A stretch of 64,000 nucleotides of DNA, from positions 232,447-296,446 of the forward strand of contig NZ_BAABFP010000005.1 in assembly GCF_039541115.1 (NCBI RefSeq), written 5' to 3'. The DNA is from Angustibacter luteus (GTDB lineage Bacteria; Actinomycetota; Actinomycetes; Actinomycetales; Angustibacteraceae). The position numbers were made by a program, and so were the translations under genes. The notes beneath the pieces were generated by a model. The model was given only the letters and a program-made list of their open reading frames with translations. It made no database searches and was not told the DNA's origin. How positions within the stretch are numbered: the stretch's first letter is position 1; the number at the start of each line of letters is the position of its first letter. Below, one piece after another: positions 47,067 to 50,098 of the stretch.

Positions 47067-47273
47067 CACGATCTTTCTGCGGGAGGGCAGGAACACGACG
47101 TCGGCGTCGTAGCGGCCACCGCCGCGGGAAACGGCTTGGGGGCGCGCACCGATTGTGCCGGACGTCGGGCCTCCCCGCGCCCGGCGACCCGCAACTGAGC
47201 GCTGGAGGTGACCGGACTGACACCGTACGGCGCGATCGAGCCGTGTCGCAGCGGCTCCGCGAAGTCACCCGGT

Positions 47274-47285
47274 TACCGTGGGTGC
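47274..47285 (+). promoter_or_regulatory. Leaderless promoter of the BrkB-type gene
   Basis: TACCGT (47274-47279) then GGGTGC and the GTG at 47286: TANNNT-N6-start, no Shine-Dalgarno. The remaining 47067-47273 spacer shows no gene; it must also contain the treX promoter. Confidence 0.45.
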
Positions 47286-48440
47286 GTGAGCAGCGCGTCG
47301 TCCATCGCCGCGGGTGTGCGATCCCGCGTGGGCGCCGTCCGCCGCTCACCGGCGGCCCTGGGGCTGTGGTCCCTGACCCGCGAGACGGTCTCGGTCTGCA
47401 TGCGGTACCGGGTTACCGGCCTCGCGGCGGAGGCCGGCTTCTTCGCGCTGCTGTCGCTGCCGCCGCTGATCCTGGGGCTGCTGGGTGGGGTCGGCTACCT
47501 CGGCAACGCGCTCGGCCCGGACACGGTGACGCAGGTCAGCGACCAGATGGAGACGTACGCGCAGCGCATCTTCACCGCCCAGACCGTGTCCAGCCAGATC
47601 ACCCCGACCATCGAGGACGTGCTGAACCGCGGTCGGCTGGACATCATCTCGATCGCCTTCGCCCTGTCCCTGTGGTCGGGCTCACGGGTGCTGAACGTCT
47701 TCATCGACACCATCTCGATCATGTACGGCCAGGGTGGGCGCCGCGGGATCATCCGGACCCGCGCGCTGTCCTTCTCGCTGTACACCGGGGCGGTGCTGAT
47801 CGGCGCGATCCTGTTGCCGCTGGTGCTGCTGGGGCCCTCGTTGCTCAGCGAGATGCTCCCGCCGAACGTCGACTTCCTGCTCAAGCTGTACTGGCCCGTG
47901 ATGACGCTGGCGACGGTGGCCAGCATCGCCACGCTCTACCACCTGGCCACCCCGCACCGGACGTCCTGGCGGCGCGACGTGCCCGGCGCCGTGCTCGCCC
48001 TGGTCATCTGGGTGGGCGCCTCGATCATGGTCCGCAAGGTGATCGGTGCCTCGGTCGGCGGGACGTCGATCTACGGGCCGCTGGCGGCCACCATCATCGT
48101 GCTGATCTGGCTCTACTTCCTGGCCATCGCCGTGCTGATCGGGGCCGCCCTGAACGCGGCCAGCCGCGAGCTGTGGCCGATCAAGGGGGAGTCGAAGTCC
48201 CCGCTCGCCAAGCTGGAGCGGCGCCGGCACCCGCTGACCCCGATCCGGGAGCCGGACGACGCGATGCCGGGCACGCACGGGCTGATGGACCTGAGCCGCG
48301 AGGACCTGGCCGACCACATCCAGGCCACCGACCCGCCCGGGCCGCCCGGGCCGATCGAGGACGACGAGGACGACGGGCAGGCGGACGACGGGCACCGGGA
48401 CGCGGATAACCAGGTGACGAGGCCGGGGCAGTCTGCCTAA
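47286..48440 (+). CDS. YihY/BrkB family membrane protein
   Basis: 384 aa integral membrane protein with about six hydrophobic helices in the first 290 residues (GLAAEAGFFALLSLPPLILGLLGGVGYLG, IISIAFALSLWSGSRVLNVFIDTI, LSFSLYTGAVLIGAILLPLVLLGP, LYWPVMTLATVASIATLYHLATP, GAVLALVIWVGASIMV, YGPLAATIIVLIWLYFLAIAVLIGAALNAA). The order and GSRVLNVFIDTISIMYG motif are those of UPF0761/YihY. The C-terminal 90 residues are charged, ending in an Asp-rich tail (EDDEDDGQADDG). The name 'ribonuclease BN' for this family is a historic misannotation. Function unknown. Confidence 0.85.
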   Translation: MSSASSIAAGVRSRVGAVRRSPAALGLWSLTRETVSVCMRYRVTGLAAEAGFFALLSLPPLILGLLGGVGYLGNALGPDTVTQVSDQMETYAQRIFTAQTVSSQITPTIEDVLNRGRLDIISIAFALSLWSGSRVLNVFIDTISIMYGQGGRRGIIRTRALSFSLYTGAVLIGAILLPLVLLGPSLLSEMLPPNVDFLLKLYWPVMTLATVASIATLYHLATPHRTSWRRDVPGAVLALVIWVGASIMVRKVIGASVGGTSIYGPLAATIIVLIWLYFLAIAVLIGAALNAASRELWPIKGESKSPLAKLERRRHPLTPIREPDDAMPGTHGLMDLSREDLADHIQATDPPGPPGPIEDDEDDGQADDGHRDADNQVTRPGQSA

Positions 48441-48443
48441 CCT
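48414..48443 (+). promoter_or_regulatory. Promoter of the rsgA leader transcript
   Basis: GTGACG (48414-48419) and TAACCT (48438-48443) are separated by 18 nt, a reasonable -35/-10 pair overlapping the 3' end of the BrkB gene. Transcription would begin near 48450, giving a 5' leader of about 165 nt before rsgA. That is unusually long for this window. Confidence 0.4.
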
Positions 48444-48499
48444 CGTGACGTCGGGCCGTCGGGGCCCGAGATGGTCGACGACGCGGAGGTGAGGTCTCG

Positions 48500-48562
48500 A
48501 TGAGCTCCGAGTACCTGCACGCCATCGCCTCGGCCCGATCCGGGGCGCTCCTTCACCGCTGA
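48500..48562 (+). CDS. Putative 20-residue leader peptide upstream of rsgA
   Basis: ATG preceded by GGAGGTGAGG at good spacing, one of the strongest Shine-Dalgarno sequences in the window, opens a frame of 20 codons (MSSEYLHAIASARSGALLHR) ending TGA 54 nt before the rsgA ATG. So small a frame with such a good ribosome site is typical of regulatory leader peptides. Downstream sequence can form alternative hairpins, described separately. No similarity to a known leader peptide is claimed. Confidence 0.55.
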   Translation: MSSEYLHAIASARSGALLHR

Positions 48563-48589
48563 GCCCGTGCTCGTCGCCCGACGAGCGCC
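48544..48589 (+). promoter_or_regulatory. Mutually exclusive hairpins between leader peptide and rsgA
   Basis: GCTCGTCG (48569-48576) pairs perfectly with CGACGAGC (48579-48586) around a 2-nt loop. Alternatively GGCGCTC within the last codons of the leader frame (48544-48550) pairs with GAGCGCC (48583-48589), which excludes the first hairpin. A ribosome stalled or terminating on the leader frame would mask 48544-48550 and favour the short hairpin. This is the layout of translation-dependent attenuators. Function is inferred only. Confidence 0.4.
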
Positions 48590-48616
48590 GCTCGGCACCT
48601 TCGAAAGGCCCTCGAC

Positions 48617-49750
48617 ATGTCGCACGACCCCCTCGCGTCCGGTCCTCAGCTCGGGGACGCGGACCAGCTCGTCCAGCTCGGCTTCGACAGCGCCTGGAGC
48701 GCGTCGTTCGACGCCACCGACACCATCACCGTCCCGGGAGCCCCGGCCTTCCCCGCCCGGGTCACCCGCACCGACCGCGGCGCCTGCGACACCCTCGGCG
48801 CGGCCGGACCCGTCCGCGCGACCTGGGGGGCGGACGTCGTCGCCGCCGTCGCGGACGACCCGCAGGCCGTCCCGAGCACGGGGGACTGGGTGCGGCTGCA
48901 GACCTGGCCGGACGGCAACCACACCATCGAGGCCGTGCTGCCCCGGCGGACCAGCGTGGTCCGGGCCCAGGTCGGCGGGACGTCGTCCGGGCAGGTGCTC
49001 GCCGCCAACGTCGACACGGTGGCCGTCGTCGAGGCGCTCTACCCGGACCCGGACCTCGGCCGGATCGAGCGCTTCATGGCCCTGGCCTGGGAGAGCGGCG
49101 CGCAGCCCCGGCTCGTCCTGACCAAGGGCGACCTGGGCTCGGACGCCGCCGAGCTGGCCGCCGAGATCGGCGCGCAGGTCGCGGCCGGCTGCCCGGTCGA
49201 CGTCACGGTCGCCCAGGACGGTGAGGGGCTCGAGGGGTTGCGGGCGCTGCTGGCCGACGGGGCCACGGTGGCGCTGCTGGGCGCGTCCGGGGTGGGCAAG
49301 TCCACGCTGCTGAACGCCCTGCTCGGGCGCGAGGCGATGCGCACCCAGGCCCTCGGTGCCGTCCAGAAGGGTCGGCACACGACCGTCACCCGCGAGCTGC
49401 ACCTCGGGCCTGACGGCGGGGCGGTCATCGACACCCCGGGCCTGCGGTCCGTGGGGCTGCAGGGCACCGACGGGCTGGCCGAGGTCTTCGCGGACGTCGA
49501 CGAGCTGGCCCAGGAGTGCCGGTTCCACGACTGCGCGCACGACACCGAGCCCGGTTGCGCCGTCCGGGCCGCCATCGAGTCCGGTGACCTCGCCGAGCGC
49601 CGGCTGGTGAGCTGGCAGAAGCTGCAGCGCGAGGCGGCCTACCAGGCTCGACGGGTCGACGCGCGTCTGCGGCAGGCCGAGCTCGCCGTCTGGAAGCAGC
49701 GCACGATGGAGTACCGCCGGTCGGTCAAGGACGGCCACCGGCCCCGGTAG
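48617..49750 (+). CDS. rsgA: Ribosome small subunit-dependent GTPase A
   Basis: Circularly permuted GTPase that assists late 30S subunit maturation. 377 aa: OB domain (about 60-120, TGDWVRLQTWPDGNHTIEAVLPRRTSVVRAQVGG), G4 LTKGD near 167, then G1 GASGVGKSTLLNALLG near 222, G2/G3 KGRHTTVTRELH and DTPGLRSVG, and a C-terminal zinc knuckle ECRFHDCAHDTEPGC near 300 followed by basic helices. N-terminus of about 55 residues precedes the OB fold. GAAAGG lies upstream of the ATG. A leader peptide frame and alternative hairpins precede it; tRNA genes follow after 85 bases. Confidence 0.95.
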   Translation: MSHDPLASGPQLGDADQLVQLGFDSAWSASFDATDTITVPGAPAFPARVTRTDRGACDTLGAAGPVRATWGADVVAAVADDPQAVPSTGDWVRLQTWPDGNHTIEAVLPRRTSVVRAQVGGTSSGQVLAANVDTVAVVEALYPDPDLGRIERFMALAWESGAQPRLVLTKGDLGSDAAELAAEIGAQVAAGCPVDVTVAQDGEGLEGLRALLADGATVALLGASGVGKSTLLNALLGREAMRTQALGAVQKGRHTTVTRELHLGPDGGAVIDTPGLRSVGLQGTDGLAEVFADVDELAQECRFHDCAHDTEPGCAVRAAIESGDLAERRLVSWQKLQREAAYQARRVDARLRQAELAVWKQRTMEYRRSVKDGHRPR

Positions 49751-49835: not shown

Positions 49836-49908
49836 GCGGACGTGGCTCAGTTGGTAGAGCATCACCTTGCCAAGGTGAGGGTCGCGGGTTCGAATCCCGT
49901 CGTCCGCT
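49836..49908 (+). tRNA. tRNA-Gly (anticodon GCC)
   Basis: A 73-nt cloverleaf. The 7-bp acceptor pairs GCGGACG with CGTCCGC, anticodon stem CACCTT/AAGGTG encloses GCC, and the T arm contains GGTTCGAATCC. The discriminator is T and CCA is not encoded. First of a three-tRNA cluster. Confidence 0.97.
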
Positions 49909-49927
49909 CGGAGGCTCTCGCCTCGTG

Positions 49928-49945
49928 GAGCCCGCTTGCGGGCTC
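49928..49945 (+). other. Hairpin between tRNA-Gly and tRNA-Cys
   Basis: GAGCCCGC, two-base loop TT, GCGGGCTC: a perfect 8-bp stem in the 43-base spacer between the tRNA genes. It may be a processing signal in the tRNA precursor, or an attenuating terminator within the cluster. Confidence 0.45.
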
Positions 49946-49951
49946 TGGCAC

Positions 49952-50022
49952 GGTGGAGTGGCCGAGAGGCGAGGCAACGGCCTGCAAAGCCGTGTACACG
50001 GGTTCGAATCCCGTCTCCACCT
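49952..50022 (+). tRNA. tRNA-Cys (anticodon GCA)
   Basis: A 71-nt cloverleaf. Acceptor GGTGGAG pairs with CTCCACC, anticodon stem CGGCC/AGCCG region encloses CTGCAAA with anticodon GCA, and the T arm has GGTTCGAATCC. The discriminator is T and CCA is not encoded. It begins 43 nt after tRNA-Gly. Confidence 0.97.
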
Positions 50023-50023
50023 C

Positions 50024-50098
50024 GGGCGATTGGCGCAGTGGTAGCGCGCTTCCTTGACACGGAAGAGGTCACTGGTTCGAACCCAGTATCGCCCACCA
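50024..50098 (+). tRNA. tRNA-Val (anticodon GAC)
   Basis: 72-nt cloverleaf plus a genomically encoded CCA (50096-50098). Acceptor GGGCGAT pairs with ATCGCCC, anticodon stem CTTCC/GGAAG encloses TTGACAC with anticodon GAC, and the T arm has GGTTCGAACCC. It starts one base after tRNA-Cys, so the two are certainly co-processed. Alone in the cluster it has CCA encoded. Confidence 0.97.

Follow-up and report, generated by a model that had tools for sequence, protein, structure and literature searches.

Attenuators of the ermC type use a drug-specific stall peptide. In these systems the leader side and the ribosome-binding site of the gene compete for one RNA arm, as is predicted for the locus described here; control at the ribosome-binding site is mentioned in PMC6310831 (cited, like all papers below, from excerpts). 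Unlike the ermC type, the leader studied here encodes a poorly conserved peptide. In Listeria, hflXr (lmo0762) is a second copy of a gene for a ribosome-associated GTPase, with a short leader (14 codons, in rli80) and alternative RNA structures, and is induced by ribosome-blocking antibiotics (PMC6310831). The gene examined here, rsgA-2, shares the first three features and presumably the fourth; it differs in encoding RsgA and not HflX, and hflXr is controlled by transcription attenuation with an RLR stall motif that is absent from the window leader. The wblC/whiB7 attenuator (PMC11550727, PMC12421871) is also actinobacterial, is off when its leader is fully translated and on when leader translation is disturbed, and responds broadly to translation inhibitors. 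There, however, an intrinsic terminator controls the gene of the activator itself, whereas rsgA-2 is a target gene at which no terminator was found. The toiL leader of E. coli topAI responds to antibiotics of several classes by uncovering a ribosome-binding site that is otherwise hidden (PMC12121999); its target is a toxin-antitoxin system in a different phylum, and the likeness is one of logic. The S. coelicolor ABCF gene are5sc, a member of the WblC regulon, is preceded by a leader frame and subject to ribosome-mediated attenuation; are5sc and tiaA differ in encoding ABCF ATPases and in that their attenuation was predicted to be transcriptional, which the tiaA reporter results did not fit (PMC12421871).

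We analysed a 64,000-nucleotide stretch of the Angustibacter luteus genome (the window). It is probable, in our judgement, that a second rsgA gene located there is governed by a ribosome-sensing, erm-like translation attenuator under WblC/WhiB7-type control, which would free rsgA-2 when ribosomes stall early. The proposed switch follows the logic reported, in the excerpted texts, for wblC, hflXr and toiL. A search of the titles and abstract openings of open-access papers returned no leader, uORF or attenuator for actinobacterial rsgA; WblC control of an S. coelicolor rsgA paralog is already in print (PMC7157823). As far as the literature was searched, the mechanism is of a known kind, and the target and its combination with a WblC-type promoter are new. 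We would give an even chance to a broader reading, in which an undescribed leader-peptide translation attenuator extends over much of Actinomycetia and exerts two-key control, WblC/WhiB7 setting transcription and ribosome progress setting translation, so that under antibiotic stress RsgA-2 would be the dedicated counterpart of HflXr on the 30S side. If true, this would connect maturation of the 30S subunit with the antibiotic-stress regulon of actinobacteria via a direct ribosome sensor, and it would point to a role for an rsgA duplicate that is common, together with a compact, testable switch.

The second rsgA gene and its promoter region

The analysed region (48438-48616) lies between a gene for a YihY-like membrane protein (47208-48440), which scores under the cut-off of its family, and the rsgA gene. 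The gene and the predicted elements of its promoter are:

48617-49750, + strand: rsgA-2 (377 aa), the genome's second gene for an RsgA-type GTPase
48405-48410, + strand: WblC/WhiB7-type box GATAAC, five of six bases to GAAAWY, 3 bp before the -35 (motif scan)
48414-48419, + strand: -35-like GTGACG, three of the four specified bases of TKGMNN (motif scan)
48438-48443, + strand: -10-like TAACCT, 18 bp after the -35 (motif scan and published spacing rule)

The rsgA-2 product scored 140.8 bits against TIGR00157 (cut-off 100), which places it in that family. It carries TKxD, GxSGxGKS and DTPG in this order, plus a C-C-H-C zinc site, motifs that we take to be those of an RsgA-type circularly permuted GTPase. 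Fifteen aligned sequences were invariant at T169, K170 and D172, at G222, S224, G225, K228 and S229, at D272-G275, and at the zinc-site residues C301, C306, H308 and C314. The other rsgA of the same genome (G000:C2:374858) is 39% identical to rsgA-2 over the matched part. Among 59 genomes, its own included, matches well above the housekeeping level were found in the genome itself, in a genus-mate (81% identical) and in nine others (39-48%), and named relatives from Kribbella, Streptomyces and Wenjunlia were 48-52% identical. The rsgA gene of the window is a second copy, not the housekeeping 30S GTPase. An initial reading made from the sequence only had pictured a 30S assembly GTPase regulated by the state of translation; the leader frame and the exclusive pairings in front of rsgA agree with this picture, but the gene turned out to be a second copy with a WblC-type promoter and not the housekeeping one.

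In the excerpts of PMC7157823, S. coelicolor SCO6149 and SCO5211 are named as an RsgA pair, the WblC-activated gene and its paralog. Because of the order in that list, SCO6149 was taken as the WblC-activated member, and it is a likely counterpart of rsgA-2 in the window. Of the papers searched, this WblC study was the one that mentions SCO6149. In a berninamycin producer, rsgA is likewise listed as one of the core genes that are duplicated (PMC9290621, in excerpt). Three tRNA genes lie 3' of rsgA-2 at 49836-50095; three tRNAs are found downstream of rsgA-2 in the genus-mate (L005) as well, and in a Kribbella locus (L034), there at a distance of about 2 kb and on the opposite strand.

The WblC promoter consensus is given in PMC7157823 as GAAAWY, 3 bp, TKGMNN, 16-19 bp and TANNNT. 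The window sequence GATAAC-CAG-GTGACG-18 bp-TAACCT agrees with it at 11 of the 13 specified bases, the box and the -35 each having one mismatch, and from it a transcription start is predicted near 48450, 49 nt before the leader. The predicted promoter (48405-48443) overlaps the 3' end of the YihY-like gene, whose stop codon ends at 48440. With a threshold chosen in this analysis (a score of at least 11 of 13, within 200 nt), WblC-type promoters were detected at 57 of the 105 loci with a leader candidate, against 0.1 in shuffles, and at none of 18 housekeeping rsgA regions. Sixteen of the 26 loci that lack a leader candidate still carry one, and therefore transcriptional control can occur without the attenuator. 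At seven of these (L102, L156, L159, L166, L168, L006 and L008) the promoter lies 4-31 nt before the match, and possibly their mRNAs are leaderless, the attenuator having been lost or never acquired.

The same genome encodes a WhiB7-like protein (L176) with GVWGG and an RGRP AT-hook, which we presume to be marks of WhiB7. Inspection by eye revealed a GC-rich inverted repeat and a T-rich run upstream of this gene, recalling the known whiB7 attenuator. Taken at the level of motifs, the locus points to WblC/WhiB7-type control of rsgA-2. Since rsgA-2 is a second copy with a promoter of this type, it more likely belongs to the response to antibiotic stress than to the routine assembly of ribosomes.

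The leader frame in the window and in relatives

Between the predicted transcription start and rsgA-2 lies a short frame with its own ribosome-binding site, the arrangement expected of an attenuator, which was found in the window and in relatives:

48485-48494, + strand: leader Shine-Dalgarno GGAGGTGAGG (read directly)
48500-48562, + strand: leader frame, ATG at 48500, 20 codons MSSEYLHAIASARSGALLHR, TGA at 48560-48562 (open reading frame; relatives have a leader at the same position)

The leader stop is 54 nt from the rsgA ATG at 48617. The leader peptide matched no NCBIfam family, and the Rfam matches that reached gathering score, in the window as in 20 of the loci, were all tRNAs; the best sub-threshold match in 48380-48700 was to a plant-type microRNA model (E 0.86). 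A known RNA family was rejected on this ground, as Rfam gave no match beyond tRNAs.

To relatives we applied a scan for ATG frames of 10-45 codons with a Shine-Dalgarno core of at least 5, within 320 nt upstream of the rsgA-2 match. The sample comprised 131 upstream regions from Actinomycetia, the window included (124 genome matches and seven of eight named loci, the short match L041 being excluded); matches in other classes and further Actinomycetia matches lay outside it. Leaders with a core of at least 5, 6 and 7 were present at 100, 89 and 79 of the 131 loci, against means of 2.0, 0.55 and 0.0 in dinucleotide-shuffled regions (20 rounds; highest 7, 2 and 0) and 2, 1 and 0 frames on the opposite strand. 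None of 18 housekeeping rsgA regions had a leader of core at least 6 within 930 nt; the narrower scan picked up a single one with a core of 5. Contig ends cut the flanks of L082, placed 7 nt too far downstream, and of the housekeeping locus L021 (245 nt). Leaders of core at least 6 occurred in 14 of 29 family labels. At 26 loci no ATG candidate was seen even within 420 nt, and some of these carry GTG frames. The other 105 loci have a leader candidate, although some picks may be wrong frames (L012 probably); after exclusion of 18 that lack a resolved separate rsgA-2 start, 87 leaders entered the tests below. The strong Shine-Dalgarno and the 20-codon frame noted initially can be read directly in the window, and by these counts the predicted leader frame is real, beyond chance.

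The genus-mate leader reads MTVVYASPRYPAPQGVPSALRA, those of Streptomyces MTVVAQGAARTQKTINVTSVVPG and similar, and three of four in Kribbella MSYYQAQRPAVSDTVRPLS. As far as predicted frames can tell, the start, site and rough length are conserved across relatives, and the peptide much less. In 24 Streptomyces-type leaders of 23 codons (one from Wenjunlia), differences per pair at the three codon positions were 7.2, 6.8 and 3.6; what is kept is the length and the nucleotides (ATGRCTGTC and the tail before the stop). A stall peptide conserved as protein was therefore rejected, because third positions vary least, the opposite of a synonymous signature. Streptomyces leaders also contain a small hairpin, GGGC-GCT-GCCC, within about codons 7-10 (A2 columns 42-52), with 89% of cells paired. 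The G+C content of the 87 leaders by codon position (0.65, 0.61 and 0.82) is high at the third, which fits a high-GC frame that would be translated.

Sensing of a single amino acid, as in classical biosynthetic attenuators, would account for the general layout of a leader with alternative hairpins. It is nevertheless very improbable, given that no shared codon run was seen by eye in the listed leaders and that the gene is not biosynthetic.

Where the rsgA-2 start is resolved (87 loci), it follows the leader stop at a distance of 33-97 nt (median 60), and all three frame relations occur. In the window, leader and rsgA share a frame, which would allow readthrough or an N-terminal extension, but the gap modulo 3 is 0, 1 and 2 at 30, 38 and 19 loci; therefore the leader is not an N-terminal extension of rsgA-2.

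Alternative pairings of leader, arm and ribosome-binding region

The RNA elements of the window are:

48544-48550, + strand: leader segment able to pair with 48583-48589 (7 bp, perfect)
48558-48596, + strand: composite hairpin, -28.7 kcal/mol, z -5.55, the proposed anti-sequestering form
48582-48595, + strand: shared arm, with the leader side and the rsgA ribosome-binding site as its two alternative predicted partners (folding and own-partner pairing tests)
48603-48608, + strand: rsgA-2 Shine-Dalgarno GAAAGG; 48607-48613 is predicted to pair with 48583-48589 when the leader side is covered

The sequence-only reading had described two hairpins that exclude each other, and both pairings exist. 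One is GCTCGTC/GACGAGC, 48569-48575 with 48580-48586, with an energy of -10.8 kcal/mol and a z of -3.65 relative to 300 dinucleotide shuffles. It is mutually exclusive with the 48544-48550/48583-48589 pairing because both use 48583-48586. The first exceeded chance; the second, taken by itself in the window, did not: it forms part of the best helix between the leader tail (48530-48559) and 48563-48597, and 1088 of 2000 shuffled tails equalled that helix. The structure of the window is best read as one hairpin, 48558-48596. Its lower stem (48558-48564 with 48590-48596) takes in the last codon and the stop of the leader, and its upper stem (48567-48575 with 48580-48588) contains the hairpin 48569-48586. 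The idea of a hairpin dependent on leader bases survives as a pairing with the leader side, but the helix most likely involves the leader stop codon (48558-48564 with 48590-48596) and not 48544-48550. We regard the composite hairpin as the local form of a leader-arm helix because the predicted leader-arm helix of the genus-mate encloses an inner hairpin; by eye, the helix also appears to close around one in many Streptomyces sequences.

The initial reading mentioned neither the promoter nor a third alternative, in which 48583-48589 pairs with 48607-48613 and some of the rsgA Shine-Dalgarno is included; the best helix of this alternative in the window was equalled by 282 of 2000 shuffles. Excess folding stability over shuffles was no greater in the intergenic part (mean z -0.79; window -3.2) than upstream of the leader (-0.78).

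Conservation of the pairings was assessed with an alignment-free test, in which the best helix was found for each leader tail against the intergenic part of every species, bulges and mismatches being allowed and penalised. Removal of similar tails reduced the 87 loci to 36 non-redundant ones. With one-bulge helices, the leader tail paired better with its own intergenic part than with those from elsewhere (z 4.96, 0 of 50,000 permutations, n=36), and so did the arm with its own rsgA ribosome-binding region (z 4.32, 0 of 50,000, n=36). The controls at n=36 were null, both for the leader head, that is the first 30 nt (z 0.09), and for the tail with the rsgA region (z 0.25). A stricter similarity cut (n=26) gave 0 and 1 of 50,000 in the one-bulge test. 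RNAduplex scoring gave z -3.4 (8 of 20,000), and ungapped helices gave z 2.6 (386 of 50,000) for the leader tail and z 5.3 (0 of 50,000) for the rsgA site; one-bulge scoring was chosen after the results of these two schemes were known, and the directions agree. With one locus per family (n=11), the counts were 560 of 20,000 by RNAduplex and 609, 1,411 and 10,650 of 50,000 by ungapped helices, with 5,393 for the head control, and z in these schemes was only 0.8 to 2.3 in size, which is weak. The two helices overlap on the arm at 28 of 36 loci, a small excess over the 24.8 obtained with permuted tails. L140 provides an example, in which the leader sequence CCGGGTGTCC can pair with GGACACCCGG, and ACACCC of the latter can also take GGGTGT of the rsgA region.

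Within Streptomyces (35 loci), 96.3% of cells were paired in the leader-arm helix and 97.1% in a four-pair helix with the rsgA region. Double-change cells numbered 7 against 3.4 in shuffles, and 3 against 0.8, and these pair counts are weak because the arms hardly vary. In the comparison of leader codons and arms in relatives that had been suggested initially, own-partner pairing was kept; the Streptomyces peptide was not kept as a stall peptide would be, and double changes within Streptomyces were few.

To judge by these tests, mutually exclusive pairings of the arm, with the leader and with the ribosome-binding site of the gene, are kept across species, and the window taken alone is compatible with them without reaching significance. 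The partner that matters appears to be the rsgA ribosome-binding site. A chance frame with GC-rich hairpins might be argued from the window, where the helices of the leader tail and of the rsgA site did not rise above shuffled sequence; the 100 leaders at 131 loci against 2.0, together with the pairing permutations, refute it as a whole and leave it hardly credible. Two observations had been named at the outset as contrary to an attenuator, a lack of conservation of the small frame or the pairings and a 5' end downstream of 48500. Since the frame (100 of 131) and own-partner pairing (0 of 50,000) are conserved and the promoter motif predicts a start near 48450, neither was found, as far as prediction goes.

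The proposed switch and its direction

In the attenuator that we propose, a WhiB7-type factor and the housekeeping sigma factor would start the transcript near 48450, as the motif suggests, and the strong leader site would load ribosomes. In normal translation, ribosomes that reach the leader stop (48560-48562) would sit on the 5' side of the hairpin 48558-48596; the freed 3' side (48582-48595) would then pair with the rsgA ribosome-binding region (48603-48613), and rsgA-2 would be poorly translated. If ribosomes were held early, or did not load, the hairpin would form, the rsgA site would be freer, and RsgA-2 would rise. We infer that the leader is translated, that this second state is the on state, and that translation inhibitors are the signal.

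Folding of the window agreed with this scheme. With the RNA covered up to 48517 (ribosome at the leader start), the composite hairpin was predicted; with cover up to 48572 (ribosome at the stop), 48583-48589 paired with 48607-48613 and the Shine-Dalgarno at 48603-48608 was largely paired. The unpaired probability of the rsgA site was 0.54 in the former and 0.34 in the latter. Against the scheme stands that shuffling the leader body left the 0.54 unchanged, a result that would follow if the foot at the stop were all that mattered. Across the 87 loci, the unpaired probability was 0.33 with the ribosome at the stop and 0.30 with it at the start, a slight difference opposite to the one expected (Wilcoxon p 0.02), and at Streptomyces-type loci it was 0.27 (stop) against 0.18 (start); shuffled leader bodies gave 0.32, no different from real leaders (p 0.19). 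Folding of the 87 loci did not support the proposed direction, and both the direction and the signal of the switch are inferred.

The structures could act by ending transcription, as a terminator and antiterminator do at wblC/whiB7, and not by hiding the ribosome-binding site. This is the mode used by wblC (PMC11550727) and by Listeria hflXr (PMC6310831), and Rho-dependent ending after blocked translation, as at toiL (PMC12121999), is possible too, to go by the excerpts of these papers. A search of 47500-49700 for an intrinsic terminator found no terminator-like site, however, a run of five T occurred in the intergenic part at only 1 of 87 loci, and the rsgA ribosome-binding region itself takes part in own-partner pairing. 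Control by termination is accordingly quite unlikely in our estimate. As no intrinsic terminator was found, translation is the likelier level of control.

It is also conceivable, though on balance unlikely, that the leader raises rsgA-2 translation by termination-reinitiation or by melting of structure (translational coupling), with no sensing of stalls. The spacing of 33-97 nt from leader stop to rsgA-2 would suit coupling, the failed direction test at the 87 loci is compatible with it, and it has been proposed that leader peptides generally act through reinitiation (PMC4833913, in excerpt). Coupling does not, however, predict that both the tail-arm and the arm-rsgA site pairings match their own partners, nor does it predict leaders that extend over the rsgA-2 start in another frame. 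Such leaders were found at seven compact loci (L092, L098, L116, L126, L136, L164 and L165), where the frame crosses the nearest possible rsgA-2 start out of frame, and therefore its translation would occlude or hinder that start. These seven leaders, whose translation should hinder rsgA-2, speak in favour of the direction proposed for the attenuator.
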